This document shows, one piece after another, positions 20,213 to 43,847 of a stretch of 64,000 bases of DNA; within the stretch, counting starts at the first letter, position 1; every line of letters starts with the position of its first letter. Under the pieces are notes generated by a model that saw only the letters and a list, made by a program, of their open reading frames with translations, searched no databases and was not told the DNA's origin. The DNA is from Isoetes taiwanensis (lineage: Eukaryota; Streptophyta; Lycopodiopsida; Isoetales; Isoetaceae): NCBI GenBank assembly GCA_021234155.1, contig JAJEKV010000214.1:186001-250000 (forward strand). Direction: 5' to 3'. The position numbers were made by a program, and so were the translations under genes.

Positions 20213-21690
20213 CTTCTTAACTTGGGCCGTTCCTACCGAGCGTCCCAAGTTCCTGAGGACATTGGTTGACGTCCCGCCCTGCAAGACTGACACCAACTCT
20301 TCTACTCTGCGGTCGGCGGTGTAGGCAGCGATTCTTGCTTAATCTTCCTCGCTTGCCGGTAGGGAGACGCAGTAGTCGAAGATGTGAAGTGCCATTGCTC
20401 TCTTGACTAGGACAGCATATTCGACATTTGCCGCTATTCGAGCATGTCTGCCGAAGCCTGAGAGTGCAATAAGCATGAACACTCCTTCTTCACCCCGGGG
20501 GCTGAATTTGCGGTGTATCACCGCTATTCTCCCATCCCGCAGCAGGGGGAGGTAGTACCACTGACATTGCCGTTGTGTGTTCAGCGACGACTCTCCTCTG
20601 GCAGCTCCCCGGGTCTATGCCTTACGGCATATTCGCCGACCTCCACCTCGGTGATTTCCTGGTAATCCCCGACAGGGAGTCGACTACGCGATGTCGATCC
20701 CTGCTCCTCTTGCTGGAGGTGGTGTCGAGGAGCTTGGCATTAAGACGCTCGTGGTCTTGCCACGGATCCCCATCCGCTCCTGGAGGGCGAGGAACTCCTC
20801 CTCCGTTGGCAGCTCTCGCGCTTCCATCATTTGCCTGATGTTGCTGTAGGCTGGATGTCGGGAAGACTCCCCTGTGTAGGTGTCTTCCCGACTTGAAAGC
20901 AGAAAAGTCCCGAGACTCCGGATGATGAAGTAGGGCCCAAGCCTGGTGCCGTAGTTGGTGCAAAGAGTTCGTCAATCAGAATTTCGTTCTCCCCTCTTGA
21001 GAAGGTTACGATGTCGCTGAGGAGTAGATACTCCTCTCCGTTGATGATGATGGGGGCTAGGCTTGTGATGCCTAGCCCAAGTGGGGGAGCGACTTTGAGG
21101 GTCTGCCGGCTCCGCTCGAGGTTGGCCAGCTCCTCTTCTGCTTGCCGCCGTTCTTCCTCTGAGTCGAGCTCCGTGTACTCTTCGTCGTCCGACTCCTCTT
21201 CTTCTTCTCTTCCTTCTTGTTTTGCCGCCGGTACTTGCAAAAGCATCTGCTCTTCTGCTTGGGCTGCTGTGGGGTCCACCTCCATGGGAGGAATAGAGGT
21301 TGCCCCCATTGGTTTTTCGGCACGGTGGGAAAGGAAAATGGCTAAGGCGGTGGTGTAGGAAAAATACTTAGTCCTGTCAACTGTCAGGACCATGTAGTCT
21401 GGCAGCCTTTGTGCCTTGTTGGTCAAGTATTTGGCAATGTTCGGAACATCACCCAAGGCTACTTGAAGGGATGGGCGGGGAACAAAATACCCTATGCAAG
21501 GGGGTAGCTGCACGAGGGAGGGTCCTAGTCTAGCTTGGAACTCGGCTAAGACTTGCCTGTACACCGGGGTTGCATTCAGAGTGGCTTGGACATCTATTTC
21601 TTTCCTAAAGACTCGAAAGATGTCATTGACATCGGCCTCGGCAGCATGGGCACTGGCGCTGTACCATCGCCTGAAGTCAGCAGTGGCCAT
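20213..21690 (-). pseudogene. gypsy accessory ORF-b, unrecognised protein upstream of gag
   Basis: The open part runs from an ATG at 21690 to 20827 (287 residues). It begins MATADFRRWYSASAHAAEAD. A hydrophobic or globular first half contains LPDYMVLTVDRTKYFSY. An acidic stretch (EGREEEEESDDEEYTEL) and a LANLERSRQTLK helix follow. After frame changes it continues with ELPTEEEFLALQERMG, then FSPRGEEGVFMLIALSGFG, RIAANVEYAVLVKRAM and, after a stop at 20341, RRVEELVSVLQGG and VKKFLEEFQE (stop at 20213). About 490 residues in an unbroken version. I recognise no family. It is in sense with pol, preceded by two 67-bp palindromes, and sits where gypsy elements normally have only leader or gag. Confidence 0.55.
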
Positions 21691-22003: not shown

Positions 22004-22070
22004 GTCTCACACGTTGCGCCCAGACCGATAATGAAAAGTTCATTTTCTGCCCTGGCGCGACGTGTGAGAC
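22004..22070. repeat. 67-bp palindrome (hairpin), copy 1
   Basis: The arms are GTCTCACACGTTGCGCCCAG and CTGGCGCGACGTGTGAGAC. The centre GAAAATGAA...TTCATTTTC is itself symmetric, with two mismatches in this copy. Four copies exist in the gypsy internal region, in two pairs. This pair precedes ORF-b and follows the H3-like ORF. Confidence 0.9.
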
Positions 22071-22199: not shown

Positions 22200-22266
22200 G
22201 TCTCACACGTTGCGCCCAGCCCGAAAATGAAAAGTTCATTTTCTGTCCTGGCGCGACGTGTGAGAC
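22200..22266. repeat. 67-bp palindrome (hairpin), copy 2
   Basis: Near-perfect copy of the same palindrome, about 130 bp from copy 1. Both arms and the GAAAATGAAAAGTTCATTTTC centre are conserved. Confidence 0.92.
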
Positions 22267-22411: not shown

Positions 22412-22686
22412 TTAAGGGCGCTCTCCCTTGATATGACTAGCAAGATGCATGTCTTGCCTCATAAGTGTGACCCTCTTCGCATGAACTGTGCAGGCCGTCG
22501 AATCTTCAAAGTGCTGCACCAGTTTCTGCTCTGCTGCCTCCTGTAGGCACATCAACATTTCGTCGGTCACCCTCATCTCCGTGTTGTACTCCTGGATGAC
22601 CTCTCAGACTAGGTAGTGGAACGGTGCACGGGGGATCAAAAATCCGTAACTTCGCTGGAAGTGCCGGATTTCATTGAGGGCTCTCC
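22412..22686 (-). pseudogene. histone H3-like ORF of the gypsy element, histone-fold part
   Basis: Reading frame on the minus strand from the transposon junction to a TAA at 22412-22414. The residues follow canonical H3 from A47 to the C-terminus without gaps: ALNEIRHFQRS (H3 ALREIRRYQKS), FLIPRAPFHYLV (LLIRKLPFQRLV), [16 protein letters not shown] (LQEAAEAYLVGLFEDT), VHAKRVTLM (IHAKRVTIM) and HIKGERP (RIRGERA). Loop 1 has canonical H3 length, not the longer loop of many CENH3 proteins. One in-frame TGA at the REI-like position breaks the frame. Sense is the same as gag-pol. The N-terminal tail continues at 38280 across the 15.6-kb transposon, and the CTCC target duplication proves continuity. 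Divergence from host H3 is large. Confidence 0.85.
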
Positions 22687-22717
22687 AACCATCATCCAAT
22701 TAAATTGGGATTATGTC
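22687..22717 (+). repeat. left terminal inverted repeat of the 15.6-kb transposon
   Basis: Starts AACCATCATCCAATTAAATT and ends TTATGTC. It contains the internal palindrome CCAATTAAATTGG. The same end closes the inverted copy at 49801-49831. Confidence 0.9.
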
Positions 22718-22989
22718 AACTCCAAAATCACGAACCTGCTATTGTCTTCTAGGGGGTTTTTGTTTTTTTTAATCTTTTATTTTGGACTTCAAAAATAACA
22801 TAAGGTTGCGATTCACGTGTGACTTTTCATATGCGAATTGAAATATGCAAAAATGAAGAGCAAGTTGCTAACATAGATGAGACCAAAATTGCTTGCTCGA
22901 TAGATGATAATATTAGGTTTGATAATAACAGATTGCATTATTTGCGAGGCAATTCCAGACTCGAAATTATCGATACATGGCACAAATAT

Positions 22990-23640
22990 CATACAAAAAT
23001 ATCATATATTCCAATAAAACATTAAGGGATCAATCCATGTTTTTCCACGTATTTAACAAGGTGTGGTTCCATGTCAGCCGTTCTGTCCAGTTCTGGGTAC
23101 GAATCTAACACTTCACCCACCGTCATCCCCATAGCCAAATTATGCATAAAACTTCACCAAGAAAATCATCGCCATAAAGTTTTTTAGATCGTAAGATGGT
23201 GGATTCAGGGCCTGTGTTTGATTGTAGAAGCATTTGAGAGCATCATCATCCACTATGATTATATCATCCTTATTCTCGATACCAAGTTCGTCCATCATGT
23301 TAGTCAAGTGTTTGATGAAGATAGGTTTACTGTTGGATCCTTGGGATTAGTGAACTTCACACATTTGTTACGATCCCAAAAGGTCAACCAATGTCTACGC
23401 ATTTCCCCCAGTGCCTCCAAAGTATCCTTGATGTTCCTTAGTTCCATGGATGACCAAATACCAACTCGAAATAACCTGAATGCCTCGTCTAGCATCTCCT
23501 TCAAGTGCGGCCGCGGATAGATCCACTTGGTGTTTGATTCTACTGGTGTCTGATGAAACTGATCTCTAGCCACTTTATTTTTTGGAAAAGTCTTGCAAAG
23601 GACTCCGTTTAGGTCGAACACCACAACCTTCTTAGAAACG
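22990..23640 (-). pseudogene. transposon cargo: HAD/FCP1-like (CTD-phosphatase, NIF type) protein
   Basis: The segment opens at an apparent splice acceptor near 23640 and reads VVVFDLNGVLCKTFP, IYPRPHLKEMLDEAF, FRVGIWSSMELRN and HWLTFWDRNKCVKF, then after a frame change DELGIEN-type and DDDALKCFYN. This order matches FCP1/NLI-interacting-factor HAD phosphatases found in plants. Motif I reads DLNG, with Asn where the canonical DxDG/T has the second catalytic Asp, as in a known plant subgroup. Stops near 23300 and later break it. A parallel decayed copy is at 48890-49400. It is the gene nearest the left TIR, reading towards it. Whether it serves the element or is captured cargo is unknown. Confidence 0.6.
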
Positions 23641-23703
23641 CAATGGAAGCTGAAACATCAAACATGTATCCGGTCAGCAAGATACGATAACACAAACAAT
23701 ACA

Positions 23704-23845
23704 AACGCGCCAAGCGTGATTTGAAATAGTCATAACCAAATCGCGCTCGGCGTGATTTAGTTTGACAACGAAAAATAATCAAAGCACGCCTGGCGCGATT
23801 TAATTCAAAGGTAATACAAATTAAATCACGCGTGGCGCGATTTCG
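23704..23845. promoter_or_regulatory. cluster of four CACGCC(N)GGCGTG-type palindromes upstream of the HAD-like gene
   Basis: Sites include CGCGCCAAGCGTGATTT, CGCGCTCGGCGTGATTT, CACGCCTGGCGCGATTT and CACGCGTGGCGCGATTT, about 35-45 bp apart. Each is bordered by AAATC or GATTT, so the symmetry extends beyond the core. They lie between ORF-B and the HAD-like gene. A role as binding sites is inference. Confidence 0.6.
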
Positions 23846-23849
23846 TGGG

Positions 23850-24390
23850 CAAGGCCATACCTATCATCTTCAGTTTCACTGCCGCCGTCGGCGTCATTCA
23901 CCCCTTCGCCACCCTTAATCTTCATGCTCTTCTGACTGTTAGAATTGTTATTTTCTATTAGTTCCACTGCGTCCTTCACAACTGACATTATTTTACTATT
24001 GATTTGGTAAACCTGTGAATCACTAGAGTCGCCTTGGTTGCCTTCAGCCGGTTGCCACATCAATTAGCTCATTGTTAACCTGTGAATCTACTCTATTGTT
24101 GCTTGCATCACCCTGAAGGGAGGCAAGGATATTCCCTAAGTTCGCCGCGATCACATTACTTTGAGCAGCCAGTTTAGCAGCTATTTGTTCATTGCTTTCC
24201 TTATCAGGCTGCGGATTACTAGTTCCCTCACCAGAACCATCGTCCACTTTCGAATTGGACAAGTCTACGAGACAAGTTTCGCTGCCGTCGTCGGCGTCAT
24301 TCTCCCCTTCGCCACCCTTAATCTTCGTCTTCTTCTGACTGTTAGAATTGTTATTTTCTATTAGTTCCGCTGCGTCCTTCACAACTGACA
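23850..24390 (-). pseudogene. ORF-B C-terminal segment, second tandem unit
   Basis: Minus-strand open sequence encodes SNSKVDDGSGEGTSNPQPD, KESNEQIAAKLAAQSNVIA, NLGNILASLQGDASNNRVD and MSVVKDAAELIENNNSNSQK, a low-complexity Asn/Ser-rich, possibly disordered tail. About 400-430 bp are tandemly duplicated. One unit is complete here and the other is split by Helitron B at 24391. The undisturbed junction at 23990 (GACA|TTATTTTA) is the empty target site of that Helitron. In the inverted copy (48.24-48.65 kb) there is only one unit. Confidence 0.65.
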
Positions 24391-24860
24391 TCTTATATTA
24401 TAATGTTTTAGTGCAAGTAATGGACCACGCCCTAAATTCGACGGCCGAGATTTCATGATGCAATTCTAGGGCTAAAAAGTGGCGTAAAAAAGGCTAAAAA
24501 AGTAACGTCCAAAAAATATTAAAAAAAGGGCACGTAAACCTCAAGAATAGCCAATTTCAATTTAGGGTTCAATTTAGGCAGGCAAATTTAGGGTGCTTGA
24601 TCGAGGATGAGGATCGGAGATACCTGCCTGGTTTACCATCGAAGATGAGGATCGGAGATACCTGCCTGCTTTACCATCTTGCTGCTCTGTTATCCAGCAT
24701 TTTCTCACCAAGAACGTTTATTAATATAAGATACAGAGCTTCTGGCTATGGCAATATCACTTGCCCCTTTGGATTGGATGGCCAAGAAAGCTCTAGGGTC
24801 CTTTTAAAACAAATCTCGAGTTCTAGGGTTCCGCCTCAAGACAAAACGTCCTTACCTTTT

Positions 24861-25605
24861 CTATCGAAACAGAAAGCGGAAGCAGAGAAGCGGATCGTGC
24901 AAATGAAAGGTAGGTTTCCATTGATCCGCCCATTTATCCGCTAGCTCTCCATTGCGTTTTTCCAATTCCCTGTGCATTGTTGCTGCGGCGCAGATTATTT
25001 GGGTCCATAATTCCATCGAGGCTAATGTTCTTTGGAGTATCGGTTCCTTCATGAATTGGGGCGTGTAAGTTTTCGGATTGTCCAAATGGTATATGATCTG
25101 CAGTAGCTCCATATTACATTGGTGCTTAGGTCGCCAATGGAGGCCTCTGCGCTATTTATGTATTCATAGGATGGGTCAGAGTTGGCATCCCAGATCCATC
25201 CCATTTCCAGCTGGTTGTCCCTTTGATCAATGGTGAAGCCTGTAACTGCCATGCTCCAAGTGGCCATTTGCTGTTGAGCAGAACGGATGTGTCGCTGTAT
25301 AATTCTTAGGACCCTTTGCCAAATTGTTTTAGCATTTTCACAGTCCCAATAGGTATGAAAGTGGTCTGCTGGTTGTCCACACCAAAGGCAAGGGAAATAG
25401 CTGATAATTTATCTATAGTTTCTGCGCATTGTGCCTGTATAGATGATCCTTCTGATGATCCAGCAGAGCCATCATGCAAAGAGCTGATTGAGCTGTGAAA
25501 AAACCCATTCTGGTAGATTATGACATTGAAATGGTATAGTATCCTTGCATTGTTTAATTGCTTTGAGTATTTGAAATCCTCATCTGCCATGTCGCGATAG
25601 CTCAT
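24861..25605 (-). pseudogene. captured LINE fragment (RT zinc-binding-like region) inside Helitron B
   Basis: The minus strand reads in pieces WCGQPADHFHTYWDCENAK, TIWQRVLRIIQRHI and SPSYEYINSAEASIGDLST, then KWADQWKPTFHLHDPLLCF. The first two resemble the zf-RVT domain at the end of plant LINE ORF2 and the linker to the following region. Frame changes separate them. Orientation is opposite to the Helitron, as often seen with captured DNA. An independent LINE insertion truncated at both ends is the alternative. Confidence 0.5.
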
Positions 25606-26327
25606 TGTAGACTGTTTGTTCTTAGATTAGCAGTGATGACGATTTTGTGGTCACTGATTTATTATTGCCATTAACAAAGGATTTTTCCTTATCTGCAGAT
25701 CATTGAAAAGATTACCATAGGAGCATCACACATAGGAAAAAATTCTAGAATTTCTTACGTGCATGACAAGCACTGTGCAGTTGACATATCCAAGCAACTC
25801 TTATGGTAAGCAACTCTGGGATTTATGCGAATAAAAGTATGAATCCTTAGGCTCAAAGGATGTGGTCATTGAAATTCATAGTATCTTTGAAAAACTCATC
25901 CATATTAGCAGCTATTAGAGTTTCAGTTTACCAGATATAAAAGTTTCAGTTTGCCAGTAAATGGTTGCAATGCAGACTCCTGCCAGTGATGCTTGCCATA
26001 GTGATTTTTTCCACCGAGCTTTTGGGTCCAGGAAGGCTTACACAGAACATGATGTTCTTCCTTATGTGGATGCTTAATGCGGCAAGTTTCAAGATTCAAG
26101 CAATGGCAGAACCTTCTAATGCCGCGTAGAAGTCAAGAAAAGAATACAGATGCAAGAAGGTGCCAAGATGTAATCTTGAGATGGTTTGGGTTGTCAAACC
26201 CAGAGCTTATTGTAGTACTACAGTCATAGTGTTTACTGTTTTCAAACCAAAAGCTAGAGGTATATGTATTTATGTTTTATCTGCGAAAAATAGTTTTGTC
26301 CTAGGAGAGGCCAAAACACAAAAGCAG

Positions 26328-26431
26328 GGAAGATTTGGATTTGAAAAAAATTGTATTATGACAAATAAGAATGGCATAAGGAAGATTTGGATTTGAAAAA
26401 AATTGTATTATGACAAATAAGAATGGCATTG
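26328..26431. repeat. 52-bp tandem duplication in Helitron B
   Basis: The unit beginning GGAAGATTTGGATTTGAAAA occurs twice, head to tail, almost without change, followed by a shorter echo (CATTGGGGACTACATAGCA) at about 26475-26520. Confidence 0.85.
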
Positions 26432-27206
26432 GACTAAATAGAACATTGTGGTCAGTCACAACAATAGCATTAGCATTGGGGACTACATAGCACAACAATA
26501 GCATTGGGGACTACATAGCAAGACCATGTGAGCGAATGATAATGTATTGAAATATCCATACTTAGAGAATATCCATATTATACAGAACTGTAGTATTAAA
26601 GGCAATCTTTTATTCTTTTTGTGTATGTCTTCTATCAACACAAAACAAAAGCATGTATGTAGACGTGTAAACAAAAAGGCAAATCTCTACATTTTAATGG
26701 AGCTACACAAAGTACTTTGCTATGTTAATGAATGCTATCTTATGCTAGGATGGACAAGAAAATCAACATTTAAAACTTATATCACCTTCAAAGAAGCAAC
26801 TATAAAACTACACTATAGGAGTTGTTACTCGAAGATTGGAAAGACATGGTTTGTTAGACCTCTAGCAACAAAGTTTGAAAATAACATTTATAAGAGCTTT
26901 GCAACAAAACTTGAAAATAACATTTATAAGAGATCTGCAATGCCAAGCTCTGGTTCAACTACTTGGTATTTTAACTATTCATACAATTGAGTAGGCAACA
27001 TTTTTAAAAGTCCAAAGATATATGTAACACAACTATTCATATACATCACGGAACTTCCACGGAACCGATGGTGGGCAATTACATATATAAAATAAAATAG
27101 GCAAATTACAAAATAAGAATTACATAGCGATGGGCACATTTTTTTCAATTGCGCCCAAAACATTTATAGACTCTCGACTTATGCCCGGCAACGGCACCAT
27201 TACTAG

Positions 27207-28870
27207 TTATTTTATTATTGATTTGGCAAACCATGTGAATCACTAGAGCCGCCTTGGTTGCCTTCATTTTAGGTTTCCACATCAATTATTTCATTGTTAA
27301 CACTGTGAATCTACTCTATTGTTGCTTGCATCACCCGTAATGTGGGCAAGGATATTCCCTAAGTTCGCCGCCATCCAAAGTGCTTTGGCGCCCGGTTTAG
27401 CATGACTATTTGTTCATTATTGCTTTCCTTATCGGGCTGCAGTTACTAGTTCCCTCACGGAATAGCGTCCACTTTGAATTGGACAAGTCTGAGACTTTTG
27501 ATTCTTGATGATTCGAGGGTTGCCATAAGGGCCTTTAGGAGATTTGGCAAGCACATGCATGAGGAATGGTTCAAGAAAGTCTTTGGCCTGCCCATTACTC
27601 ACAAAGTAGTGACATCTTCTTGCACCCATAAGAGCCTCTCGGGCAATATAACCTCCAACATGAAGCTCCAAGCAGGTTGTATCAATTGGAGCAAATGCCT
27701 CCGAGGAAAGCGACCATAGGCGGAAATCCATTTTATTTAAGGGGCCCTTCTCCTTAGTTTGTAGCTCGTGCTTGATTTCCTTTACTTAGGAGGGGTCCCG
27801 ATCCTCATCCTCTTGACTCATCCTGTTACGGTCGATCGATCCGTATGAAAGAATATAGTTCTTAAGTCCGGATCATCTAGAAGAAAATATTCCCATCCAC
27901 TGCTATTGTCACCCTTGGCCTTAGCAATATCATATTCCTCGTCTGACAGCATGGATATCATAATAAAGATCACATGTGCCATCTTCCGTTCTGTTCGCAG
28001 CTCATTATCCTTAACATCATATATTAGGCATCCCTCCTTAATAACTTTGAGGCACTCCAGATCATGAGCATCGGATAGTGCATGCAGATGTGACTCACCA
28101 GAAGGACAAACAATGACAATAGTGAAGGACCTCTCAGTTGTCAATCCTATACAGCTGGTAAAGAAGCTGCTGTAGTCCTTCGGTTCATGCCCATATCTCC
28201 TCTCCCACCCCCTATTTGTCCAACACAAAGAGTGATATATTTTTTAAGGCCGGTTGATTACGGCAAGAGATCTTTGTACCCAATGGAGACTGAATACTGG
28301 ACAGCGTCATCTTCTCCAGTAATCTTCTTCACAAGGGCCACTTTTCTTCTCAACTCGGCCCGATTACCTTAGGGGTAGAGTCTCCTTATGTTTTGTATTT
28401 TTAGCCTTCCAATTCTTTAGGAAGTCCTTTGACGAGAATACAAACTTCTTGATGTCATCATTCTTGACCTTGTATTTGTCCGGCCAATCAATTTGAGGAT
28501 AATGCCACATCCCCAGATAGCCTTTGTAACTCGGCTCCCTGGTGACTTCATTATCACGATACATTCTTTACGTGGCTGCAGCACTCAACGAAGGACATCC
28601 TATCCTTGGTGAAAGCACCCTTCTTGTATAAGACTTCCTTCTTTAAGCATTGGTCTAAAACCCAAATGGTCTCGGCCGTCTAGCCCACGAGTCTTTCTCA
28701 TCTCTGTCACATTCAAGTCAAAGATGCTTACATCAGCGGGAGGCACCCTACCCATAGTATCCTGCAGCTTCCTTTGTGCATAAGCGTCCAATTCATTCCA
28801 CTTTTGCCATCTTGCATCCTTACAAAACACAATCTTATACGAAGTCTATTGGGCCTGACACGCTAGATGA
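27207..28870 (-). pseudogene. transposon cargo ORF-B, unrecognised large protein
   Basis: Minus strand, several joined frames. From about 28830: KWNELDAYAQRKLQDTMG, DVSIFDLNVTEMRKTRG; then YLGMWHYPQIDWPDKYKVK, KKFVFSSKDFLKNWKAK, AELRRKVALVKKITGE; then (28.2-27.8 kb) TTERSFTIVIVCPSGESHLH, HDLECLKVIKEGCLIYD, KMAHVIFIMISMLSDEEYD; then AFAPIDTTCLELHVGGYIA and FLMHVLAKSPKGPYGN. An Asn/Ser-rich tail follows at 27490-27207 and again at 24390-23850. The inverted copy at 46900-48470 aligns segment by segment, and each copy has frameshifts the other lacks. That indicates a real ORF of roughly 600 or more residues in the ancestor. I recognise no domain. Confidence 0.5.
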
Positions 28871-29079
28871 GCTTTTCGGGAAAAGGATCTGCAATGTCAT
28901 CACCACCTTTTTTCTTTGATTTTCTTGCGTTTTTTTCTTCTTCTCAATATAATTATGCATGCAGTCCGCTCAAACAGCTTGAAAGCCTCAGACTTTGACC
29001 CGCCCTATCTGGTAGGTAATGGCAGCCATTTTCCACCCATTTGATTGGCGTGGCGCAGCTTGCTCCGCGTATGGACTGC

Positions 29080-29440
29080 CAAAAGTACGCATTGAATCGA
29101 AGATCGAGACAAGAAACACGCCGGTAGCGATTTCAATAGAAAAGATCAACCTCAAAAATGCGCCTGGCGTGAAATGAATTAAATACCAATGCAATTCCAC
29201 GTGATGCCTGCTTTTGAATCGGTTAATTCACGCCAGCGTTATTTCAAATGAATTGAAATCACGCCAGGCGTGCTTTCAAATCAAATCAATTCCACGCCAG
29301 GCGTTTTTAACATTTCGCTGGCCCAGGCCGGTTTGATTTGATTGCACGCTTTGGCGTGATTTGGTTTCATTCTGGGGAAATCACTTTGGCATGAATTGGT
29401 TTCATTTGAATGAGCGCTGGCGTGAATATGAAAGTGCTAA
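29080..29440. promoter_or_regulatory. array of CACGCCAGGCGTG-type palindromes upstream of ORF-B
   Basis: Complete or half sites recur every 25-45 bp, among them CGCGCCTGGCGTGAA, CACGCCAGGCGTGC, CACGCCAGGCGTTT and CACGCTTTGGCGTGATTT. They are embedded in runs such as TTTCAAATGAA and AAATCAAATCAATT. The inverted element copy has the matching array at 46305-46572. The array sits between ORF-C and ORF-B, where a promoter would be. Function is inferred from position only. Confidence 0.65.
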
Positions 29441-29479
29441 CATCCTAACCACGGTTAGTTACCTTTTGTATAGAAATGT

Positions 29480-30620
29480 CTTCCCCATTTCATTCAAAGT
29501 TGCACTAATCTAAACCCAAATCTGCGAGGGTGAAGTATTGGCATCAAGATCTGACACCTCCTATCGCATAGTGATTGTAGAAGCAGCGTTTTGGCCTGTT
29601 TGTTCTACTCGGGCCTGATGAGGGCCTTACGTGCCTCAACAGAATCTTTGCCGTCGATGGCGGCGAATTTAATGTTATCCTTTACCATTCGTCCTCGAAG
29701 TTCGTCCACTCGCCGGGCTTGTTGAGATCATATCCCAAGGTAAACATCCGGTGGCATAGGCATTTGACTGGATTACTAATCATGCTCACGAACAATCTCC
29801 ATGGCATGGCTGGATCATATCTTACGCTAACATAAATGGAGCTTGGTGAACGGATGAGGGACTTCACATGGATCATAAAAGTTTCCTTAAGACCCTAATG
29901 GATAATGGTGTGACTTATTCACTTATTCATGGCGTCTAATTGCGCCACCATCCTCTGTTCATTCTCAAAAAGCGAAGCCTCCATGCCTTCGACAACTGCG
30001 GGTTGAACATCCTTCCCTAGATCTAGGACCCTCTTAGAAGCTTTCAAGTCGGCTAATTCCCTAGCTTTCGCAAATAGTGACTTGGTGTCGGTTTTAGTGA
30101 ACATGCCTCTACGCATTTGTAACCCCTTGGCAAATAGATATTAGGCGTAAGCTGCTACATTGGTTGGCCAACCATACTTAAAACATGTCTCACCGATTTC
30201 ACACCATCTTCATGAGCGTATCCTTGTGTCGCGATAGCTCTATAATGAGTAAGTGCGAGCAGATCTTTCTTACGCTTTTGTGTAATCTCAAGAGCAATTT
30301 GCGGTTGGTGTCATCTTCTTCCTCACAAAAGATTAGGATCCCTTGTTTGGTCATCTTTATGCCTTCCTTTTTCCTCGAGAGAAGAGAGTTAAGTCGAGCT
30401 TGCCATTTGTCTTGGCAAGGTCAATGTGTACCACTCGGCACCCTCGTCCATTTCCTCTTGAGCTGAGGCAGGGTCGTGGGTTGCTATAAGAATCGGCCCT
30501 TCATCATCTAAGGTGAGATCATATGGATGCGCATCGGATCGTCTACCCTTGACTTCTTGGCAGGATTAGAACCGAATTATTAGGGTTTTCTTCCTCTTGG
30601 GCCTTTGCAAAAGAAGATGA
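29480..30620 (-). pseudogene. transposon cargo ORF-C, unrecognised protein
   Basis: Minus-strand segments: VHIDLAKTNGKLDLT, KKEGIKMTKQGILIFCEEED, RKLLLRLHKSVRK (30.45-30.28 kb); then MRRGMFTKTDTKSLFAKARE, LADLKASKRVLDLGKDVQPA, VVEGMEASLFENEQRMVAQL (30116-29919); then MIHVKSLIRSPSSIYVSVRY and PVKCLCHRMFTLGYDLNK (29876-29682). The inverted copy at 45290-46250 has the same segments in the same order. No recognised domain. It probably follows the RGG exon as later exons of one gene, since that exon ends in a splice donor. Confidence 0.5.
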
Positions 30621-31056
30621 ACATTTTTATAGTATTTTTCAGAACAGGAGATCACGCTTGGCGTGCATTTAAACCTAAATTAGTACAATTCACGCTTGGC
30701 GTGTTGGTAGCTCCTATTCTTGACCATGCTATGCGTGATTTTGAAACTAAATTAGTTTGCATCCACATTTTAAGCTACATACCCTTTATGAATCCATATT
30801 TCACACTATTTAACCTCATTGAACATTGCTATCTCCAACTGTCTAACACCGCTATATTCTATATATAAAACAGAGCAAAATTATGTTCTACAAAACGGAC
30901 AATCAGAGCATTAACTGATGGTAATACTTAAAATTCATGCAAAGCATAATAACTCAAACTCATGCAAAGCATATTAACTGAAGGCAAGGAAATATCTCAA
31001 ATTCATGCAAGCATAATACTCTCCACACAGTGTGTATTCTGTGGCAAATTAAATAC

Positions 31057-31192
31057 CTTGAATAAGGTTACGTATTCTGTGTGTATTCTGATCAACGTCC
31101 TCTGAAACTTGAGAAGAGCCGGGTTTTGAGATTCCTCTTCCACCGCTTCCTCTGCCCCGTCCGCCTCGACCACCTCTGGTTTTAGAAGACAT
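31057..31192 (-). CDS. RGG-box first exon of a transposon cargo gene
   Basis: An ATG at 31192 opens MSSKTRGGRGGRGRGSGGRG and then ISKPGSSQVSEDVDQ. It ends at a splice donor (CAAG|GTATTT). RGG/RG-rich N-termini typically bind RNA or single-stranded nucleic acid. The frame is intact here. In the inverted copy (44563-44683) a stop has arisen after SQV. It probably forms the first exon of the gene continuing as ORF-C downstream; the join is not proven. Confidence 0.55.
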
Positions 31193-31639
31193 CTCCGGAG
31201 TCGCCTAGTAACAGAGTCGGAAGGTCGCTCGGATCTGGCAATTTCAGTACTTTCGAAGAAATAGCTTTTTCTGCATCAGACGAAAAATAGAAATTTGAAT
31301 TTCAAGAAAACACAAAATGCAGTTTGAAATATTCTTGACACATACAAATAATAATGGCGAAGACCCGTCCATGAGCTTCTTTCATTAAGTTTTTAACCAC
31401 CAATCTACCCAAAAAGTATCCCATAAATTTATCCCCCTAAGCGTAGTTAACCTAATCTTTCTTCTAATTGAATTTTTCCGGGCCGGAGTTTCCATCAGCT
31501 TGTGATTTCGAGAACTCAAATCAGCTTCTCAAGAATGGCTACAGAATTCTGGTACTCATCTCATTCCTATAGCTTGAACATTAATTTCCAATAGTAAGTG
31601 TCTGAATAGCAATTTTTCTGCATTGTCGAAGATGAATGT

Positions 31640-31865
31640 TTCATGTTAACTACAAATCAGAAAAGGAAAGTAGGATTATGCAAGATCGACTCCATCGATC
31701 CATTCAGAATCGTCATGGAATTCCGCTAGGGGGATAAGTATGTCCGGAAGTTCTGATGATTAACTGCTGCACTATGGATGAAGCTTTACCCGAGACACCC
31801 CGGTGGGGATACGGTTGGAGAAAGTGTTGGAACATTTGTTGCATGGCCAAGAAACCGCTTAAAAA
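31640..31865 (+). pseudogene. small transposon ORF on the plus strand, unrecognised
   Basis: Starting at about 31648 it reads TTNQKRKVGLCKIDSIDP, then DKYVR and, after frame changes, residues matching AMDEATPVGIRLEKVLEHL. The inverted copy (44054-43848, minus strand) keeps a 68-residue open frame. It runs opposite to the neighbouring cargo genes. The open copy lacks stops that this copy has, so this copy is degenerate. Function unknown. Confidence 0.4.
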
Positions 31866-31997
31866 AGGTATGTAACATGTATTACATTGTAGAAATATAG
31901 AAGTAGACAAAATTTGTTGTATTCATTGGAAAAAGTTTATAATTGTATATAATCGGATAAATTGGATAAACCGGACAAAATCCCGGACCTATTTGTT

Positions 31998-32676
31998 TCA
32001 AGCCCGGTCTTGGTAGGCTGGGCTATCAACTCTCCCATTTCCATAGCTGGGCATAGTGACCCTGTCGGGTAAAACCCGGCCAAAAACACCGAGCTCTAGC
32101 TCCACCTCCCTTTTGCTCCACCTCCACCTCCACCTCCTGCTCCTCCTCCTGCTCCATTGGTTGAACCTCCAATGCAACATATAGCGCTGCGGTAGTGGTT
32201 CCATTGGTTGAGCCATCTCCATTGCATCGTATATCTCCTGTGGTAGTGGTTCGTGTTGGGGCATCCGGGCATAGAGGCTAACCACTAAAAACGACTCCTC
32301 ATTTTGAATCTCGAATCGCCGGATCTGAGATTCACTCTCGATCAATGCATGTACTGCGATTGCAATGCATGTACTGACGGATGCGAGATTCACTCTCGAT
32401 CAATGCATGTACTGCGATTGCGATGCATGTACGTGCGATTGCAAGGGCCCCAGAGCCCAGATCTATCATTGCCCTGCGCTCTGCTGCCATCATCATTACT
32501 TGATCCAAGTACTCCGGGGTTGTAAGGCGGGTGCTCGGCCCGGGCCTGGTGCTCCTCGCCGGTTCAACCGGACTGGAGATTGGAGCCGAAACTGGAGCTG
32601 GGCTATGTGATTGCTGGCCCAAATGTAATTCCAATGCATCTTCGTCACCAACCGGGTGATTAATGTAACTTGGCAT
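31998..32676 (-). pseudogene. transposon cargo ORF-D, unrecognised protein
   Basis: An ATG at 32676 opens MPSYINHPVGDEDALELHLG, a Pro/Ser-rich linker (SPAPVSAPISSPVEPARS) and TTPEYLDQVMMMAAERRAMI. A short internal duplication follows (AVHALIESESRIR and AVHALIESESQIR, about 60-70 bp apart at 32330-32430). After a frame change it continues EIQNEESFLVVSLYARMPQH and an Arg/Trp-rich low-complexity end. The inverted copy starts identically at 43117. The shared start in two diverged copies supports a real gene. Confidence 0.5.
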
Positions 32677-32699
32677 CTATCAATAGGAAGTGAGCGGAG

Positions 32700-33075
32700 T
32701 ATCAGTATTCACGCCTGGCGTGTTATATTTATTTATTTATAAACTTAGAAACTAAGAGACACGCCCGGCGTGTTTAGCATAAAAGTTGAAAGTAGGGATA
32801 AAATTGTTTGCACGCTCAGCGTGTAAACTGCTATATAGGAAAAACTATACTTTCGGCGTAGAGGGAAAAAAAAGCAGTACAGATAGATAAGTAAATAGAT
32901 AAAAGGCGGGCAATTATTTTACACGCTAAGTGTGTAAAATAATTGCCTGGCCTTTATCTATTTACTTATCTATCTGTACAGTTTTTTTTTCTCCCTCTCT
33001 GCTGAATGCACGCCGAGCGTGTATTCATGTTGAAGGCTAAGGTTAGCATGAAACACGCTTAGCGTGTTTCAAATA
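32700..33075. promoter_or_regulatory. array of CACGCCNNGCGTG palindromes between ORF-D and the acidic gene
   Basis: Sites about 45-110 bp apart: CACGCCTGGCGTG (32711), CACGCCCGGCGTG (about 32761), CACGCTCAGCGTG (32811), CACGCTAAGTGTG (32921, at the centre of the large hairpin), CACGCCGAGCGTG (33009) and CACGCTTAGCGTG (33054). The four-base arms are constant and the three central bases vary. That is the expected pattern for dimeric protein binding, stated as inference. Confidence 0.65.
32861..32999. repeat. large hairpin with arms of about 65 bp
   Basis: Left arm GAGGG-A(8)-GCAGTACAGATAGATAAGT and onward; right arm mirrors it through ACTTATCTATCTGTAC, poly-T and CTCCCTC. A few mismatches. The centre is CACGCTAAGTGTG. 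The homology of the inverted element copy stops at this centre (42852). Confidence 0.88.
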
Positions 33076-33079
33076 TTAT

Positions 33080-34320
33080 CTTTCGCGTGTTTCAAATATT
33101 ATCTTTCAGATTTTTCTAATGCTTTCTACTACACTTATTCATAATAGAAACTTGCATGCAATAGCATGATTAATTCGGAAGAGAAACTCAAGAATTTACT
33201 GAACAAAAAAGCGGATGAAGTTTATAGAAAACTATTCTGGTTTCATAGACATCATCTGCTTCCTGCCTAGAGCAAATGCAAAAAGCTTGTCTTCTTGGAT
33301 TAAACCTGCCATTGAGATGAAACTTAAAACTAAATGAAAACTAACCTTGAGTTCTCGAGGTCGGAAGGATTGAAGAACGGAGGACTATGCTTGTGGTTTT
33401 AATTAGGGCTTTTCGATTCATGAGACCTTAGTCCTCTCAAGCACGGATGCTCTGAGAACTAAAAGGCTGAGTCTTTTAGTGAGTTAGGAATTGCCGAAAC
33501 CAAACATCTAACATTCTTTGAATATAAATCGCTCACCAAGATTTCGGGAGGGCGGATCCAAAACACGCAGGCGAACCGCAAATCGTATGAAGGAAGGAAG
33601 AAAATGTAGGAACTTTGAGAGCGTGAAATGGATTTATATAGGCATAATTAGAAATAAGTTAGCGTGAATAATTGATTGCTTGAATTAACACGCTCGGGCG
33701 TCATTTGATCTTCTTGGACATGACATGTATATGGTATATATGGAGAATATTACATTTCATGCAATAAATTCTCACGGCATTTTATTCCATTTATTGCATT
33801 CGAAAAAATAGAATTTAGAAATTTTATATAGGCTAAATTAAAAATGATTTTAAAGGCAAAATTATGAAGGCTAAAAAATGACTTGTAAGGTTGGGGAATT
33901 ATTTTAGGTCGTATAGGAAAATTTCCTATGGTTACTGAGATGAATCAGAGATTTCTCATGTGGTTGATTTATAGTGTTCCCGAGACTTTGTTGAGACAAA
34001 ATTTGCAGATACAAAATTTTAGAGAAAGCAATGACGAACAGGAGACAAAATAATTGGAGAAAACAGTTGGATTTAATTCAAATAATTTTATGTCTGTAAA
34101 AAAGCATTAGAAGAACACTGTTTGAAGAAAATTTTATGAAAACTTTTTGATTTCATTCATAAAAGTTATATGTAACAGGTAAGCCCAAGGCTTGTATGCA
34201 AAAAGTGCGAAGGCTTTTCACAAAATTACATGAAAAAATATGCCGGGAGGCGTGTCCAAAGCTTCAGAGTAGCAAACCAAAAACAAAAGGGGCCGCCCGG
34301 GATGCATCATTGATCTTCCA
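33080..34320. other. non-coding stretch of the 15.6-kb transposon
   Basis: AT-rich, with no supported gene. It contains one further CACGCTCGGGCGT site near 33690 and direct repeats of GAGACAAAAT (33995-34050). Confidence 0.5.
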
Positions 34321-34324
34321 CGTC

Positions 34325-34612
34325 TGCAACAAAGAAGAAAGAAAGGTGTTAGAAAAGAAAGAAAGGTGAAAAAAATAAATAAAAGCAGACATGCAAACCT
34401 AGCTCATCTCTCAACCATTCTAAAAACTGGTCGAATTGTCGACCTTCCTCCTCATCTTCTTCCTCCGCCTCCTCCTCCTCTTCCTCCTCCTCCTCTTCAG
34501 AGATTTCATTCTCTTTTTGGTGGTCAAGCCAACCACAAGCGGGGCGGTCATGTGCTCTTGAGAGGACATCTCCTCCCTCTTCCTCCAACTCCCTCCTCTT
34601 CCTCCTCTTCAT
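34325..34612 (-). CDS. small acidic transposon protein, two exons
   Basis: An ATG at 34612 gives MKRRKRRELEEEGG, then a long Glu/Asp run (residues 40-57) and FDQFLEWLRDEL. A donor (GCTAG|GTTTGC) near 34395 and an acceptor (TTTGTTGCAG) at about 34326 join to a short exon ending within five codons in TGA, giving about 75 residues. Basic head and acidic body suggest a nuclear chromatin- or protein-binding role, but this is composition only. No copy exists in the truncated inverted element. Confidence 0.45.
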
Positions 34613-34839
34613 CGAGGAGGAGGAATCGAGGAGAATTGGGCAAGAAAATCTATGGGGGGAAATAGAGGTTCTTCAACCCGACGTCTCTTTGAAAAGACCT
34701 CGGGTTCTTCATGAAGCTCGAAAGGCGAGGCAAACGCTACATGGCGGGCCCGAAAAAAAAATTTGGACAGAATGGAGGTCTTGAGGCGTGAACCGGATTT
34801 ATATAGGGTTAATTAGAAATTAGCGTGAATAATTTATTG

Positions 34840-35210
34840 CCTCAAATAACACGCAAGGCGTACGAAATTCCCGCCAGCTATATCATCTAGGGTATATTAT
34901 TATGGATAATAAATTCTCACGTCCATCAGCTATATGTCTTTTTCAGAATCATATATCCAAATTTTTCGATAATTAAAATTAGGATATATTTATATAAATG
35001 TCATTTCCTTGTTGTTGCCACGAAAATTCTTGTTTTAAATGATTTCGTTTACGCCCATTGTTATTATTATATTAAACCTATTTCCAAGGAATTTCTTGCT
35101 TTTAAAAAATGTGATTTACCTCTACATATTCCATAAATGTATTACTTTTTTATCTTATGGTGTAATAATTTTTTCCTACTCATTGACTAAAAAGGGTGCA
35201 ATTTGCCTAG
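34840..35210. other. intergenic region before the DUF7869-like gene
   Basis: AT-rich. One CACGCAAGGCGTACG site near 34850. The last 10 bp (TTTGCCTAG) look like a splice acceptor for the exon starting at 35211, so part of this stretch is probably an intron. Confidence 0.4.
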
Positions 35211-37900
35211 GTCAATGGTGCCTCTCCAACTCAAGATGGTGTGCAACATATTGAAAAGAGCAATATCAATGAAAAACCAACTCCTAACAAGAATGTTGAA
35301 GAAAAACAATTAGTCCTCTATAGTAGGGTGCAATGGAGGAACAAGAAGGTGAGAATCATGCACAAGTGCAACAAGGAAATAGTAGGGCAAGGAGTCATTG
35401 TGCTAGCAGATCCTGGTCAAGCTGTTAATGATGAAAGGCTAGGGGAAGACAATATTGGTATTGCAATTTCGATGTTGGAAGACAACTGGAAAGGTAAAGG
35501 TTTGGGTGACAAGGAATGTTTTGGTTGTGTCAAGCAATTGGAGGTTCCTTGCATCATGGCATGGCCTATAAGTAGTGTTCAATTTGTGGAGGATTATATT
35601 TTTCCAGAGCCTGAGGTTGTTGGGGACAATGATTGTCTTGATATTGATCCATTGGCAGTTGGAACTCTAAACCTAGGCAAAAGGGGAGAAGTATCAGTTG
35701 CCAGACATTATCCTAGCAAAAGAGCCAAGTTGAATAGTGACACCAAACGTGAGACAATGGTGAAGGTTAGGGGCTCAGATTGTTGTTGGAGTGCTTGTAG
35801 GCAATTCTTTACAATAGAACAATTGGTGGAAGCAAAGAGCCACTTTTTCAAGAGTACTTTGTTGATGAGAGGAGGACCTACATGTACACAATCTTCGAGC
35901 ATGCACTTCAAGATGAAAGAAACCCAAACAGAAAAAGATACCCTTTGCTAGGCAAATGGATATGTGCAAAAGCATGGCAGAGTATCCATGCAATTCCAAC
36001 TTCTTCATGGCATAATTGGCAAAAAAAACAGGCAGAGGGGAACATGATTGCTTTACATGGAAATAATGGTTTGTTGAGACCAATAGCTAGGACCTTGGCT
36101 GCCAGGGAGATATTTGAAAAATATATTGATTTCAATGCGAGTCTATGCCACACAAAAAGTAGAAGGGATGAAAAGGGAAGAGCGGGTTGTTGAGAAAAGG
36201 TTGCCATCACATTGTACTCAAAAGAGTATTTTGGAAGAAGTAAATTCCCTACTTCGAGAATTGGGAATTCTTCAATATCCCAACCTAGCTTTAGTAGGTT
36301 ATGGAAGAAGCATTTCAATCATGTCACCATAGCAACTTCAAACAACTTTGCAAAGTGCAATTTATGTGCTAAGTTGAAGGAGACTCTTGATAAGACCTGC
36401 AACAACCTAGTCAAAGGGCTAGGATAAGGGAGCATATGAAGGACCATATGATCGACCAACTATCATGTAGATCATGTTATTGGATGTGGAGGACTTCAAT
36501 AACTATTTATGTATTATACATGACAAGATGGACCAGCAAAAGACTTGTCTTCCACAATTCAAGTACATACCAAAGTCATGTGGAAGATCATACCCTTTCT
36601 GAATCTCAATGATCGGGGCAATCTTGCATGGGCGAGTAATCAAACCTACTATGGCCATTTTAGTTTGGAGTTGTGGAGTGATGGTCAGATTTTCATATTG
36701 GGAGTATCATGAGGTGTTTGAGAAACTATGAAAATGGATACAATGGTCACCTCCGGGACCTTCTGACTAGCCGTGCACTACATAGAGCATTGTTAGATGG
36801 AAACCCTAACAATATTGAAAAGTTCAGCAAGGCAAGGTTTAGGAAGCATGGGTCTAATGAACATGTTGGAGCTTCAACTTCACTTGCTAAACCTCAAGAT
36901 CTACCCAAAAGGTTTCTCTTGCAACTTGATAATTGTCTTTGGCCAAAATAAGAACGGTGGATGTTTTCTTTCCTATCCTACTTAACAATTTGTGGGGATA
37001 TTTGAAAGAGTTAATTTAGGGTTCCTTATGCCCGGGCATACCCATGAGGATGTGGATGCATTATTTGGCAAATATAGTTGTATCTTGAAGCAACAAACAA
37101 AGGACCAACTTTCCTAGGCTAATGGAAATCTTGCATGAATGCACTACTCCAAACCCTATAGCTTCTCTCATAGAAGAAGTGCACCGATTGGAAGAGCTTT
37201 GTGGATGGTTATACATTGGATCTTGAAGGTCATTCCGGGCCTCTGCAGTTCACTTTTGGGTGAGAGATGGGATTCCAATCTTCCAATGGAAGATGAGACC
37301 TTGAGAGGATGAGTGGAGAGGAGGGGAGGAAATATGGGCGTAGAGATGAGAATGGCAAGCCTATGATACCTCTAGGTCAACCAAAAGCTTTAAAACCTCT
37401 TGAAGAAGTGAAGCAATTGGGATTGACTAAGGAAGGAATCCAAGACTATATAAAGCATTGGCAAACCAATCCAGATGACACCAACCGTGCCTTGGTGGCT
37501 TCTTTGGAAAAGGTGATTAACCTTGTTGGGGAGATAGACACATCCTCAGATGAATTGAAAGAAGGGTGGTTGCCTAAAACTAGGTGGAAGACCTTAGCGG
37601 TCTTTGAGGATTTTTGATGACAACAGACGTGGCATTAAAGCAATATGCTCCTCCTCTTCGACAAACACTATGTTGGTCCTAAGAACAATAGGCCAAAGTT
37701 TCTAGGCATGGATGCTTATGAACCTTCCATTGACTTGGAATGCCACCAATTTGTGGTAGTAAAGCGAGATTTAGATACATATCCGGTGTAGTTTGGGGTT
37801 CACTATCTCTGATATTTGCAAAGAAGAAGGTAATATTAACTTCAACCATATGTGAGGTGGAATGGTGGTGTCCGATTCATCGGTTGACCAACGTCTAGGA
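35211..37900 (+). pseudogene. DUF7869-like transposase gene of the 15.6-kb transposon (decayed)
   Basis: The exon begins after an acceptor at 35210 and stays open to 35951 (about 240 residues, SSVQFVEDYIFPEPEV). Frames change but continue through TYMYTIFEHALQDERNPNRK, RTLAAREIFEKYIDFN, NLCAKLKETLDK, then HDKMDQQKTCLPQFKYIP (36.5 kb), FLLQLDNC plus KNKNGG (36.92-36.96 kb), and GFLMPGHTHEDVDALFGKYS (37.02-37.07 kb), ending SWTPNTIPARNARITIS near 38.04 kb. D-MDQ-KT-P, LQLDN-KN and GFLM-GHTHEDVDA are hallmarks of the DUF7869 family of TE-encoded proteins in plants and animals. At least eight stops or frameshifts. It is the only transposase candidate in the element. Confidence 0.75.
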
Positions 37901-38244
37901 TAAAGAAAGGTACTTTCAGTTGTTGGATAAAGAGATGGAGGAGAAATCCGAGTGATCCTGATCTTTGGCTAGACTATGAAAGTGTTTTGTACTCATGGAC
38001 TCCAAACACTATTCCAGCTAGAAATGCGAGAATTACAATATCTTAGGATGTCAGGAAGAAGGCTATGATATCATTAAGTTGAATAACTATGTAAATTTTT
38101 GTTATCACGTTTTTATGATATGGTGCTATATTGTGAAATATTGACTATTTTGTAAATAACATGATGTTACATTTTCATAAGTGAAATGTGTGAATTTGAA
38201 TATGCTACTAAAAACATGCAATATGAAATTTGTCCCAAAATTAA

Positions 38245-38275
38245 GACATAAACCCAATTTAATTGAATGATGGTT
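38245..38275 (-). repeat. right terminal inverted repeat of the 15.6-kb transposon
   Basis: Reads GACATAAACCCAATTTAATT and on to GATGGTT, the inverse of the left end with two mismatches. CTCC target duplication follows at 38276-38279. Confidence 0.9.
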
Positions 38276-38279
38276 CTCC

Positions 38280-38495
38280 TCTCCGTCTCCTTCCTGCCGG
38301 TCCGCTTCTTCCCTGGTGCTCTAGGAGGCTTGGGCTTCCCGGTGGTGGCGGCTTTAGGGTCAGCTCTTTTGCCGGATGTCGCCCTCTATAGTCCGTACCT
38401 GTTCTCCCCGATAGTATCGCGTTATATGCCTCCCGCCGCCATGAATGTTGTGTTCCCTCGGCTTCTTTTTTGATAGACCTTGACGGGTCTATCAC
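38280..38495 (-). pseudogene. histone H3-like ORF of the gypsy element, N-terminal tail part
   Basis: Continues the H3-like frame upstream of the transposon insertion. ATSGK aligns with residues 10-14 of the H3 tail (STGGK). A Lys/Arg/Pro-rich stretch of exactly the canonical length (37 residues to A47) follows: KAATTGKPKPPRAPGKKR, then TGRKETERR. An in-frame TAG at 38386-38388 and a frame change precede it. In the neighbouring frame GRTGTDYR could correspond to H3 residues 1-8 (A-R-T...R). No Met sits directly before that point, so the H3 domain may have been longer at its N-terminus or fused. Confidence 0.7.
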
Positions 38496-38699
38496 ATACG
38501 CCTCCCGTTGTGGCGCGGTTTGACCTTATCCCACGTTGGGTAGGGTGGGGCCCGGTGCTGCGGGCTGCTCTGCTTTCGGGTGCTACCACTCGGTACCTAC
38601 ACGCTCCCTGGCGAGGGGTTTTGAAGAGCCCCCCTCGGTGTTGGGGGCGTAGTCTTCATCCCCGAATCGTCGGTGGAGGGGGTCTGGTAAACTGTGGCT

Positions 38700-39437
38700 C
38701 GTTGATGACTAAACCCCTTACCGCTCAACCCTCACGACTGTTCTTTTGCCGCCTTTATGCCTTCGCCTTCCTCTTCTTCGACTGCGGTATTGTACGGCGG
38801 CTCAGCTCCTTCTCTTACCCTCTTTCTCTTCTTTTCGGCACTCTTTGGCTTCTTACTTCTTGATAAACGCCGCGAGGTCTTCTTCTTCAACTGGGTTGAG
38901 CCTCATTTGCCTTTGTTCCTCTCTCTCCTCAGCCTCCTTCAAACGAGCCCAAGCTTCAAGTTGCTCCTCGATGTTTGGCTGCCTGCATCTTCACGTTCCG
39001 CAAGCCACCCGATCTTGTTCCTCTTTCTTCTTCCTCCTCTCCTCGTCGATTTCTTGGAGGATCTTTTGCATGAAGACCGGCTGTTCTTCGCCTATGACCT
39101 CCGTCCCCGCGTCGGAGTGTGCATCCTCCTCTCGCTGCTAGGATCCCTTACTTTGGTGGTCGTCCGAATCTGCCCCCTCACTCGATGAAGACTGGCCATG
39201 CCTGAAAAGGCGCTCCTGAAGTATCCTCTGTATCAGGGCGGGATCATGGGCGCTGGAAGGTGCTTTGTCCGAACCATATTTGGGATTCGTCAATCCAGCT
39301 GTCTCTTGGGAAGATCGCCTTGGCAAGCGAGGCCAATTTCCTAAGGAAGGACGCGGAAATGGGGGGTCTAGGTCTATTTTATAGGTGGGCGATTTTAGGT
39401 CAAATTTCAAACTACCTTTTGGGTCACCTAAAAACAC
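38700..39437 (-). pseudogene. gypsy accessory ORF-a, charged coiled-coil protein
   Basis: An ATG at 39437 opens MFLGDPKGSLKFDLKSPTYK and continues DPALIQRILQERLFRHGQSS. After a stop it continues QPVFMQKILQEIDEERRKK and IEEQLEAWARLKEAEERE, then NPVEEEDLAAFIKK. The Glu/Arg/Lys-rich heptad-like stretches suggest a coiled coil. Several frameshifts. It follows the first pair of 67-bp palindromes, in sense with gag-pol, and lies just upstream of the H3-like ORF. No family recognised. Confidence 0.5.
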
Positions 39438-39452: not shown

Positions 39453-39509
39453 GTCTCACACGTTGGGACCGATAATAAAAAGTTCATTTTACGTCATGAC
39501 GTCTTAGAC
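39453..39509. repeat. 67-bp palindrome family, copy 3 (degenerate)
   Basis: Begins GTCTCACACGTTG and has the AAAAAGTTCATTTT centre. The right arm is degraded to GACGTCTTAGAC. Located just upstream of ORF-a. Confidence 0.75.
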
Positions 39510-39657: not shown

Positions 39658-39724
39658 GTCTCACACGTTGCGCCCAGCCCGAAAATGACATTTCCATTAT
39701 CTGTCCTGACGCGACGTGTGAGAC
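39658..39724. repeat. 67-bp palindrome family, copy 4
   Basis: GTCTCACACGTTGCGCCCAG ... GACGCGACGTGTGAGAC, as in copies 1 and 2, with some changes in the centre. With copy 3 it forms the first palindrome pair, 200 bp inside the primer-binding site. Confidence 0.9.
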
Positions 39725-39917: not shown

Positions 39918-39931
39918 TTGCTCTGATACCA
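39918..39931 (-). other. primer-binding site (initiator tRNA-Met type)
   Basis: On the minus strand TGGTATCAGAGCAA lies one base inside the 5' LTR end, matching the 3' end complement of plant initiator tRNA-Met, the usual primer of plant gypsy and copia elements. Confidence 0.92.
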
Positions 39932-43705: not shown

Positions 43706-43847
43706 ACTGGGCTTGAAATAGTAGTCTGGGATTTTGTCTGGTTTATCCAGATTATCCAGATATACAATTGTAAACTTTTTTCAATGAATACAACAAATTT
43801 TGTCTACTTCTATATTTCTACAATGTAATACATGTTACATACCTTTT

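Follow-up and report, generated by a model that had tools for sequence, protein, structure and literature searches.

The window examined here, a stretch of 64,000 nucleotides of the Isoetes taiwanensis genome (assembly GCA_021234155.1, contig JAJEKV010000214.1, positions 186,001 to 250,000 of the forward strand), almost certainly contains a histone H3-like gene that belongs to a chromodomain Ty3/gypsy retrotransposon family and forms the first open reading frame (ORF) after the primer-binding site, as judged by sequence comparison. The copy in the window is a decayed, nested member of this chromovirus family, and its parts follow each other on the minus strand in the order 5' long terminal repeat (LTR), primer-binding site, H3 parts, a second ORF (ORF2), gag, reverse transcriptase, integrase, chromodomain and a 3' LTR in two pieces. 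The preliminary description of this DNA had located the H3-like frame between the primer-binding site and gag, which is right, and ORF2 lies in this interval as well.

The histone fold of the window copy (22681-22412, minus strand) reads from ALNEIRHFQRS to HIKGERP and a stop codon, with a single TGA at 22606-22604. A profile search with this fold matched Pfam Histone with E=3.3e-19, and the segment after the TGA reached E=5.3e-12 alone; the H3 chains of the PDB aligned with the fold gap-free across 88 residues (E=2e-22), which confirms the significant, ungapped H3 likeness expected on the gypsy sense strand. As had also been described, a transposon with a CTCC target duplication splits the H3 sequence: the insert occupies 22687-38275, its terminal inverted repeats (TIRs) of 23 bp match at 22 of 23 positions when compared by eye, and CTCC stands at both ends (22683-22686 and 38276-38279). 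The ORF is hence read in two parts on the minus strand. The histone-fold part (22412-22686), with its final TAA at 22414-22412, is identified by the Pfam, PDB and genome matches, and the part with the N-terminus and the linker (38276-39277), broken by a deletion and frameshifts, is identified by homology to nine open ORFs from other copies. The true N-terminus lies at 39277 (ATG at 39277-39275) and reads MVRTK before the deletion, and this part ends, in a reading by eye, at KPKPPRAPGKKRTGRKETER; the real start of the H3 ORF is about 1.0-1.1 kb upstream of the fold. In contrast to the fold, the tail match proposed earlier between ATSGK and STGGK had to be abandoned because it is out of frame, the homologous frame reading GRHPAKELTLKPPPP in the window and mostly GGHPTKSQTLKPPPP in the open copies.

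The genome (1,658,258,908 bases in 1,110 contigs) was searched with the H3 core, and the best 150 of 8,699 loose first-look candidates were scored. All 150 scored rows matched the core, with 85-93% identity for all except the window itself, and in 136 of these rows the core had no internal stop codon. Ten copies (c1-c10) with long open H3 frames were chosen and 10 kb were taken on either side, the presence counts that follow applying to copies selected through H3 and not through gag-pol. Remains of ORF2 were found downstream of the H3 core in all ten stretches, and the family gag in eight (all except c2 and c8). The exact 12-mer of the primer-binding site (TGGTATCAGAGC, which we take to be of the initiator tRNA-Met (tRNA-iMet) type) was present about 1.6-2.1 kb before the core in eight of the ten 20-kb copies (not c1 and c2) and in the window, and it adjoins the LTR end in c4, c9, c10 and the window. 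A long LTR pair enclosing the H3 ORF was visible in three copies (c4, 96.4%; c9, 92.9%; and c10, 93.3% identity), and nesting, decay and the 20-kb length read are possible reasons for its not showing in the other seven. The family order is clearest in c9, which has LTR, primer-binding site, H3 ORF, ORF2, gag, protease/reverse transcriptase, integrase, chromodomain and 3' LTR; the succession of gag, reverse transcriptase, RNase H and integrase is given by the domains of c9 and by the copies retaining these parts. The C-terminal chromodomain of the integrase (Chromo E=1.7e-10 in the window and 4.8e-10 in c9) is, by eye, without two of the three cage aromatics that we take to characterize the HP1 chromodomain, which bears on the idea that it might read a mark on the element's H3. 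In lacking cage aromatics it is like the type II chromodomains, as these are presented in the accessible part of a chromovirus survey (PMC6317226). In one place (L039-L040) H3-bearing element sequence occurs in tandem with a period of about 6.1 kb, the H3 core of the second copy being degraded.

The H3-like protein was studied in nine distinct open ORFs of 415-467 residues, picked by a start and an end motif (12 strings, three copies having been fetched twice). All have the same layout, with a MARTK(Q/E)TAR start, a linker containing many E, K and R residues, an ungapped H3 fold and a GERP end, and the complete open ORF of one copy, L002, matched Histone with E=1.5e-27. The start is MARTKQTAR in eight of the nine, Q5 being replaced by E in the other one; residue 10 is P in all of them, K9 is changed to V in three, and the ARKS motif was not seen by eye in their alignment. 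The linker comprises about 300-350 residues with long acidic and basic runs, as against the tail of about 36-45 residues expected ahead of the fold in histone H3. The N-terminus was also located by DNA similarity alone, with no motif used, in 41 stretches. It was found in 24 of them, corresponding to 21 distinct sites, each with an ATG; 17 of the 21 read MARTKQT(A/T)RKP (one of these with T at residue 7), and the remaining four (L013, L016, L029 and the window) are frameshifted or deleted. The 17 stretches with no such match include c4, c5, c8 and L051 together with 13 others, and c4, c5 and c8 show a second N-terminal type, MARTK(Q/E)TARVP. At the opposite end, 37 of 38 copies have a stop codon after the core. 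Within the fold, C110, H113, D123 and L126, presumably H3-H3' contacts, and R83, K115, R116 and T118, presumably DNA contacts, are retained in 97-100% of 37 cores, and the changes K56R, R63P, K64R, K79N, K122Q, R129H and R131K are likewise present in 97-100% of them.

Selection on the ORF was estimated with the Nei-Gojobori method (NG86) on the nine open ORFs. The core gave a nonsynonymous rate (dN) of 0.044 and a synonymous rate (dS) of 0.672, and dN/dS was 0.066 for the core, 0.221 for the linker and 0.078 for the first 12 codons, values that are biased downward by the choice of copies, which had been taken for their core similarity or long frames; this counts against selection. Of the long segments in the open ORFs, the histone-fold core shows the best conservation. 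Among the 37 cores, 74% of the differences fall at codon position 3, the DNA differs by 11.2% with a mean amino acid identity of 93.6%, and a stop codon lies inside four cores. These figures were compared with a neutral simulation (star phylogeny, equal rates) in which the best 37 of 8,699 sequences were taken by protein likeness, a procedure that approximates the real picking only; at 11.1% DNA difference the simulated copies had 44% of differences at third positions, 80% amino acid identity and a stop codon in 18 of 37. Also against selection, an earlier neutral run gave 92% amino acid identity, near the observed value, at a DNA difference after picking of 5%, which is too low; its third-position share was 52%. 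Because dN/dS is low, and because the real cores show a third-position excess and fewer stop codons than simulated neutral copies, these data indicate that selection has maintained the H3 ORF as one of the element's own genes, even though present-day copies decay.

The relation to the histone genes of the host was analyzed with a plant H3 sequence as the query, the best 150 of 9,022 candidates being scored. Fifteen rows matched over the full length at 96-98% and represent the host H3 genes, and the further 135 rows had 71-86% identity; dozens of these matches lie within open frames longer than 400 residues. The 37 cores compared from the window's family (family 1 hereafter) share 49-57% identity with a host H3, well short of near-identity. 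Taken together, the strong profile match, the ORF in other copies, the distance from host H3 and the purifying selection support the earlier claim that the element encodes its own H3 variant. The chance capture of a host H3 cDNA, which the preliminary description had offered as the alternative, is contradicted by selection, by the conserved N-terminus and by the divergence from host H3 while most scored cores stay open; a one-off capture and chance are excluded.

One of the 135 rows, L051, was read and encodes an N-terminal domain of unknown kind, beginning MAITKSA, followed by an H3 fold that is 85% identical to host H3. A relative of this N-terminal domain is present in the c8 stretch, where it is 85% identical over 138 residues, begins about 0.8 kb after a primer-binding site and lies in line behind a gag-pol whose reverse transcriptase shares 78% identity with the family-1 enzyme; this copy is cut off and ends before any H3. 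Most likely, then, a sister family carries an H3 nearer to that of the host at the same position of the element, as suggested by the one H3 ORF that was read. In a tree of 17 rows, family 1 formed one group (99/97) and L051 fell with the canonical H3s (84/85, an open fork). No similarity was detected by BLAST between the N-terminal domain of the sister family and ORF2. The starts of the sister leader ORF, MANTKSA in L045 (7873-8295) and MAITKSA in L051, faintly resemble MARTKQT and could be left over from the same tail.

ORF2 (20201-21690 in the window, minus strand), which begins MATADFRRWY, is open from 21690 to 20830 and broken thereafter. It had no Pfam match above the cut-off, and none of 1,789 candidates from a protein database reached E <= 0.001, the final part of the query being a broken frame; its predicted fold had a predicted local distance difference test score (pLDDT) of 32. 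By these comparisons ORF2, which lies between H3 and gag, is an orphan ORF of the retrotransposon with no family assigned. A search of four ORFs against NCBIfam returned no matches. When the full ORF of L002 was compared with 5.8 billion proteins, 2,422 matches were obtained and 120 listed; six of these were read and proved to be canonical histones in tandem or fused form, and among the matches listed the alignments cover 22-37% of the query. Among the 120 matches listed for the integrase of c9, Ty3-type elements from plants, from a fungus and from unnamed environmental sources reached up to 52% identity.

Both the H3 ORF and ORF2 are preceded across the family by a pair of near-perfect RNA hairpins of about 67 nt. 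Three examples in the window have minimum energies of -34 to -41 kcal/mol and z values of -4.6 to -8.4. A total of 112 instances were found, 108 of them exactly 67 nt long, and these 108 comprise 20 and 20 ahead of H3 as well as 35 and 33 in the interval from H3 to ORF2, many stretches ending short of the upstream pair. The hairpin is strongly conserved; 94.5% of its cells were paired versus 94.4% in shuffles, a covariation figure that is uninformative because the nearly invariant stem hardly varies. We infer that the hairpin is a leader module whose duplication accompanied the arrival of H3 as an additional first cistron.

Hosts silence retrotransposons through the modification of histone H3, and an element supplying its own H3, with an activating tail end and without the main silencing sites, would directly counter this silencing. 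We tentatively favor, as a serious possibility that still falls short of an even chance, that the element-encoded H3 enters nucleosomes and protects the chromatin of the element from silencing. The protein would be made from the genomic RNA as the first cistron, and the repeated hairpin leaders may allow H3 and ORF2-gag to be translated as separate cistrons. It could then pair with host H4 and assemble into an H3-like nucleosome, because the residues presumed to be H3-H3' and DNA contacts are kept. The tail has ARTK(Q/E)TAR with K4, a P at position 10 and sometimes a V at position 9, with the linker in place of the K14-K27 stretch, so that these nucleosomes would present the activating tail end but lack K27 and K9-S10 as silencing substrates, and the element chromatin would thereby be harder to silence. 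The wider proposal is held with somewhat more reserve, namely that this is a retrotransposon lineage with its own chromatin system, in which a self-encoded H3 would form element-specific nucleosomes on new copies and allow escape from K9 and K27 marking, perhaps together with the chromodomain integrase and ORF2.

Several observations weigh against the entry of this protein into silencing-resistant nucleosomes. K9 is retained in six of the nine open ORFs, and a tail of >300 residues resembles that of no nucleosomal H3 known to us. The fixed changes R63P, K64R, R129H, R131K and K122Q could weaken DNA contact. The structure model of the H3 core was poor (pLDDT 51), its best PDB match being a nucleosome chain with E=4.6e-3 and a template modeling (TM) score of 0.22. 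Finally, the two N-termini of the sister family, MAITKSA in L051 and MANTKSA in c8, are not ARTKQT, and the argument from the tail may therefore not hold for that family.

Other roles were weighed against the same evidence. The protein might stay with Gag or integrase as a packaging or targeting factor that condenses cDNA or docks the integration complex on H4 or nucleosomes; the element that encodes it has gag, integrase and a chromodomain, and the charged runs of the linker and the retained fold would suit such a role, but in the copies read H3 forms an ORF of its own with no fusion to gag or integrase, and packaging would not need the exact H3 N-terminus that is nevertheless conserved, which makes this role rather unlikely. 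That N-terminus, conserved despite the 300-350 residues of linker before the core, would be accounted for by a soluble decoy presenting ARTKQTAR to the host readers and writers of the H3 tail and titrating them without entering nucleosomes; for this purpose the tail alone would suffice, yet no other long segment is conserved as well as the histone-fold core, and we regard a decoy as improbable.

Slightly less probable still is an H3 derived from, or converged on, the centromeric H3 (CENH3) that would send element chromatin to centromeres. EIRHFQ, LIP-A-F and RVTLMR-D are common to the family and to the fold of Arabidopsis CENH3, but the N-terminus is that of canonical H3, and the family core has no extended loop 1, aligning gap-free with H3 whereas Arabidopsis CENH3 needs a gap of two residues. 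In the 17-row tree the Arabidopsis CENH3 sequence stood on a long branch with an unsure placement, and no host CENH3 was recognized among the best 150 scored rows of a CENH3 query, where H3 genes lead and the row sequences were not read. Transposable elements do capture H3, as hAT elements have done in fungi according to the accessible text of PMC6710886, and the H3 could in principle be a captured host cDNA carried without function; a dN/dS far below 1, the third-position excess, the conserved N-terminus and the finding that 136 of the best 150 scored cores are open despite about 55% identity to host H3 make a mere passenger very improbable. If the wider proposal of an element with its own chromatin system is true, this would be the first case of a histone that a retroelement encodes and selection maintains, with the two sister families standing unequally far from host H3. 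One genome offers an evolutionary series of host H3, sister-family H3 at 85% and family-1 H3 at about 55% identity, and the self-supplied H3 would be a natural test of the function of H3 marks.

With plant chromoviruses the family shares LTRs, the tRNA-iMet-type primer-binding site, gag, reverse transcriptase-RNase H-integrase and the C-terminal chromodomain, and it differs from them in two extra ORFs before gag, the H3-like histone and ORF2. In agreement with the preliminary description, which knew of no retrotransposon family with an H3 gene, no retrotransposon carrying a histone gene was found in the open-access literature searched, subscription papers and most preprints being outside this coverage. 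In the accessible text of each source, "histone" is absent from the main text of the Isoetes taiwanensis and Isoetes sinensis genome papers, from a paper on additional ORFs (PMC7264820) and from one on LTR elements with accessory ORFs (PMC6431247), and the chromovirus survey (PMC6317226) uses it once, for chromodomain binding. Accessory ORFs as such are described, in the portions available, for LTR elements of bdelloid rotifers and planarians (PMC5408684, PMC6431247).

The closest parallels come from other kinds of elements, each taken from the accessible part of the source. In Dothideomycete fungi, hAT transposons with captured H3 reach hundreds of copies in Pseudocercospora fijiensis and 26 in Pyrenophora tritici-repentis (PMC6710886), and there too a mobile element has multiplied an H3-coding sequence. 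In those fungi a DNA transposon holds a host H3 gene acquired by transduplication, which repeat-induced point mutation (RIP) has inactivated in P. fijiensis and of which many copies are potentially active in Pyrenophora (PMC6710886), whereas the Isoetes H3 is an ORF of the retrotransposon itself that has diverged strongly and is under selection. The bracovirus H4 (CvBV-H4/CpBV-H4) is likewise a host-derived histone gene with an extended tail, and the viral tail matters for its function (PMC9145170, PMC5423620); this histone is H4 and not H3, resides in a polydnavirus and is reported to join host nucleosomes (PMC9145170). The single, virus-coded H3 of Xenomavirus resembles the Isoetes protein in having a lengthened tail, but its tail is only 35 residues longer than that of H3.2 and it belongs to a virus and not to an LTR retrotransposon (PMC9145170, in whose available text the word "retrotransposon" is absent).

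The remaining parts of the window element lie on the minus strand. The 5' LTR (39933-41446) was assigned by its main pieces, 85-89% identical to the 5' LTRs of c4, c9 and c10, and by its self-match to the 3' LTR pieces, and the primer-binding site (39920-39931) directly follows it. Before the H3 ORF stand hairpin A (39658-39724, 67 nt) and the degraded hairpin B (39453-39509, 57 nt), and between the H3 ORF and ORF2 stand hairpins C (22200-22266) and D (22004-22070), both of 67 nt; a search of the window against Rfam gave no match at the gathering score. Beyond ORF2 follow gag (16000-17126), for which the family copy c9 matches Retrotrans_gag and Ty3_capsid, reverse transcriptase/RNase H (14350-15625; RVT_1 E=3.3e-30 on 14948-15625) and the integrase (12701-14350; SH3_Tf2-1 E=1.3e-21) with its C-terminal chromodomain at about 12755-12913. 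The first piece of the 3' LTR (11199-11785) is 93.8% identical to 40860-41446 and the second (1560-1943) is 89.9% identical to 40494-40863; the two are separated by an insertion at about 1944-11198, which has inverted ends of the AGGGTGCTTTTTTATTGA type.

Two GA-rich repeats that are 95% identical (4130-6023 and 17919-19812, the latter between ORF2 and gag) resemble an LTR pair with a spacing of 13.8 kb, and were rejected as LTRs of the H3 element and assigned as inserted repeats. Direct repeats (3732-4128 and 6012-6381, 87%) flank the one at 4130-6023, an arrangement resembling that of a small non-autonomous LTR element. The large transposon within the H3 ORF has a relative in the opposite orientation at 42854-49831, which has TIRs of the AACCATCAT type, and the two copies are 83-91% alike in their two longest aligned pieces. 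Open frames at 53781-57715 resemble, by eye only, a Helitron or similar helicase, and the open frame at 58777-61362 encodes a protein kinase with a lectin-type match just under the cut-off and is likely a host receptor-like kinase.

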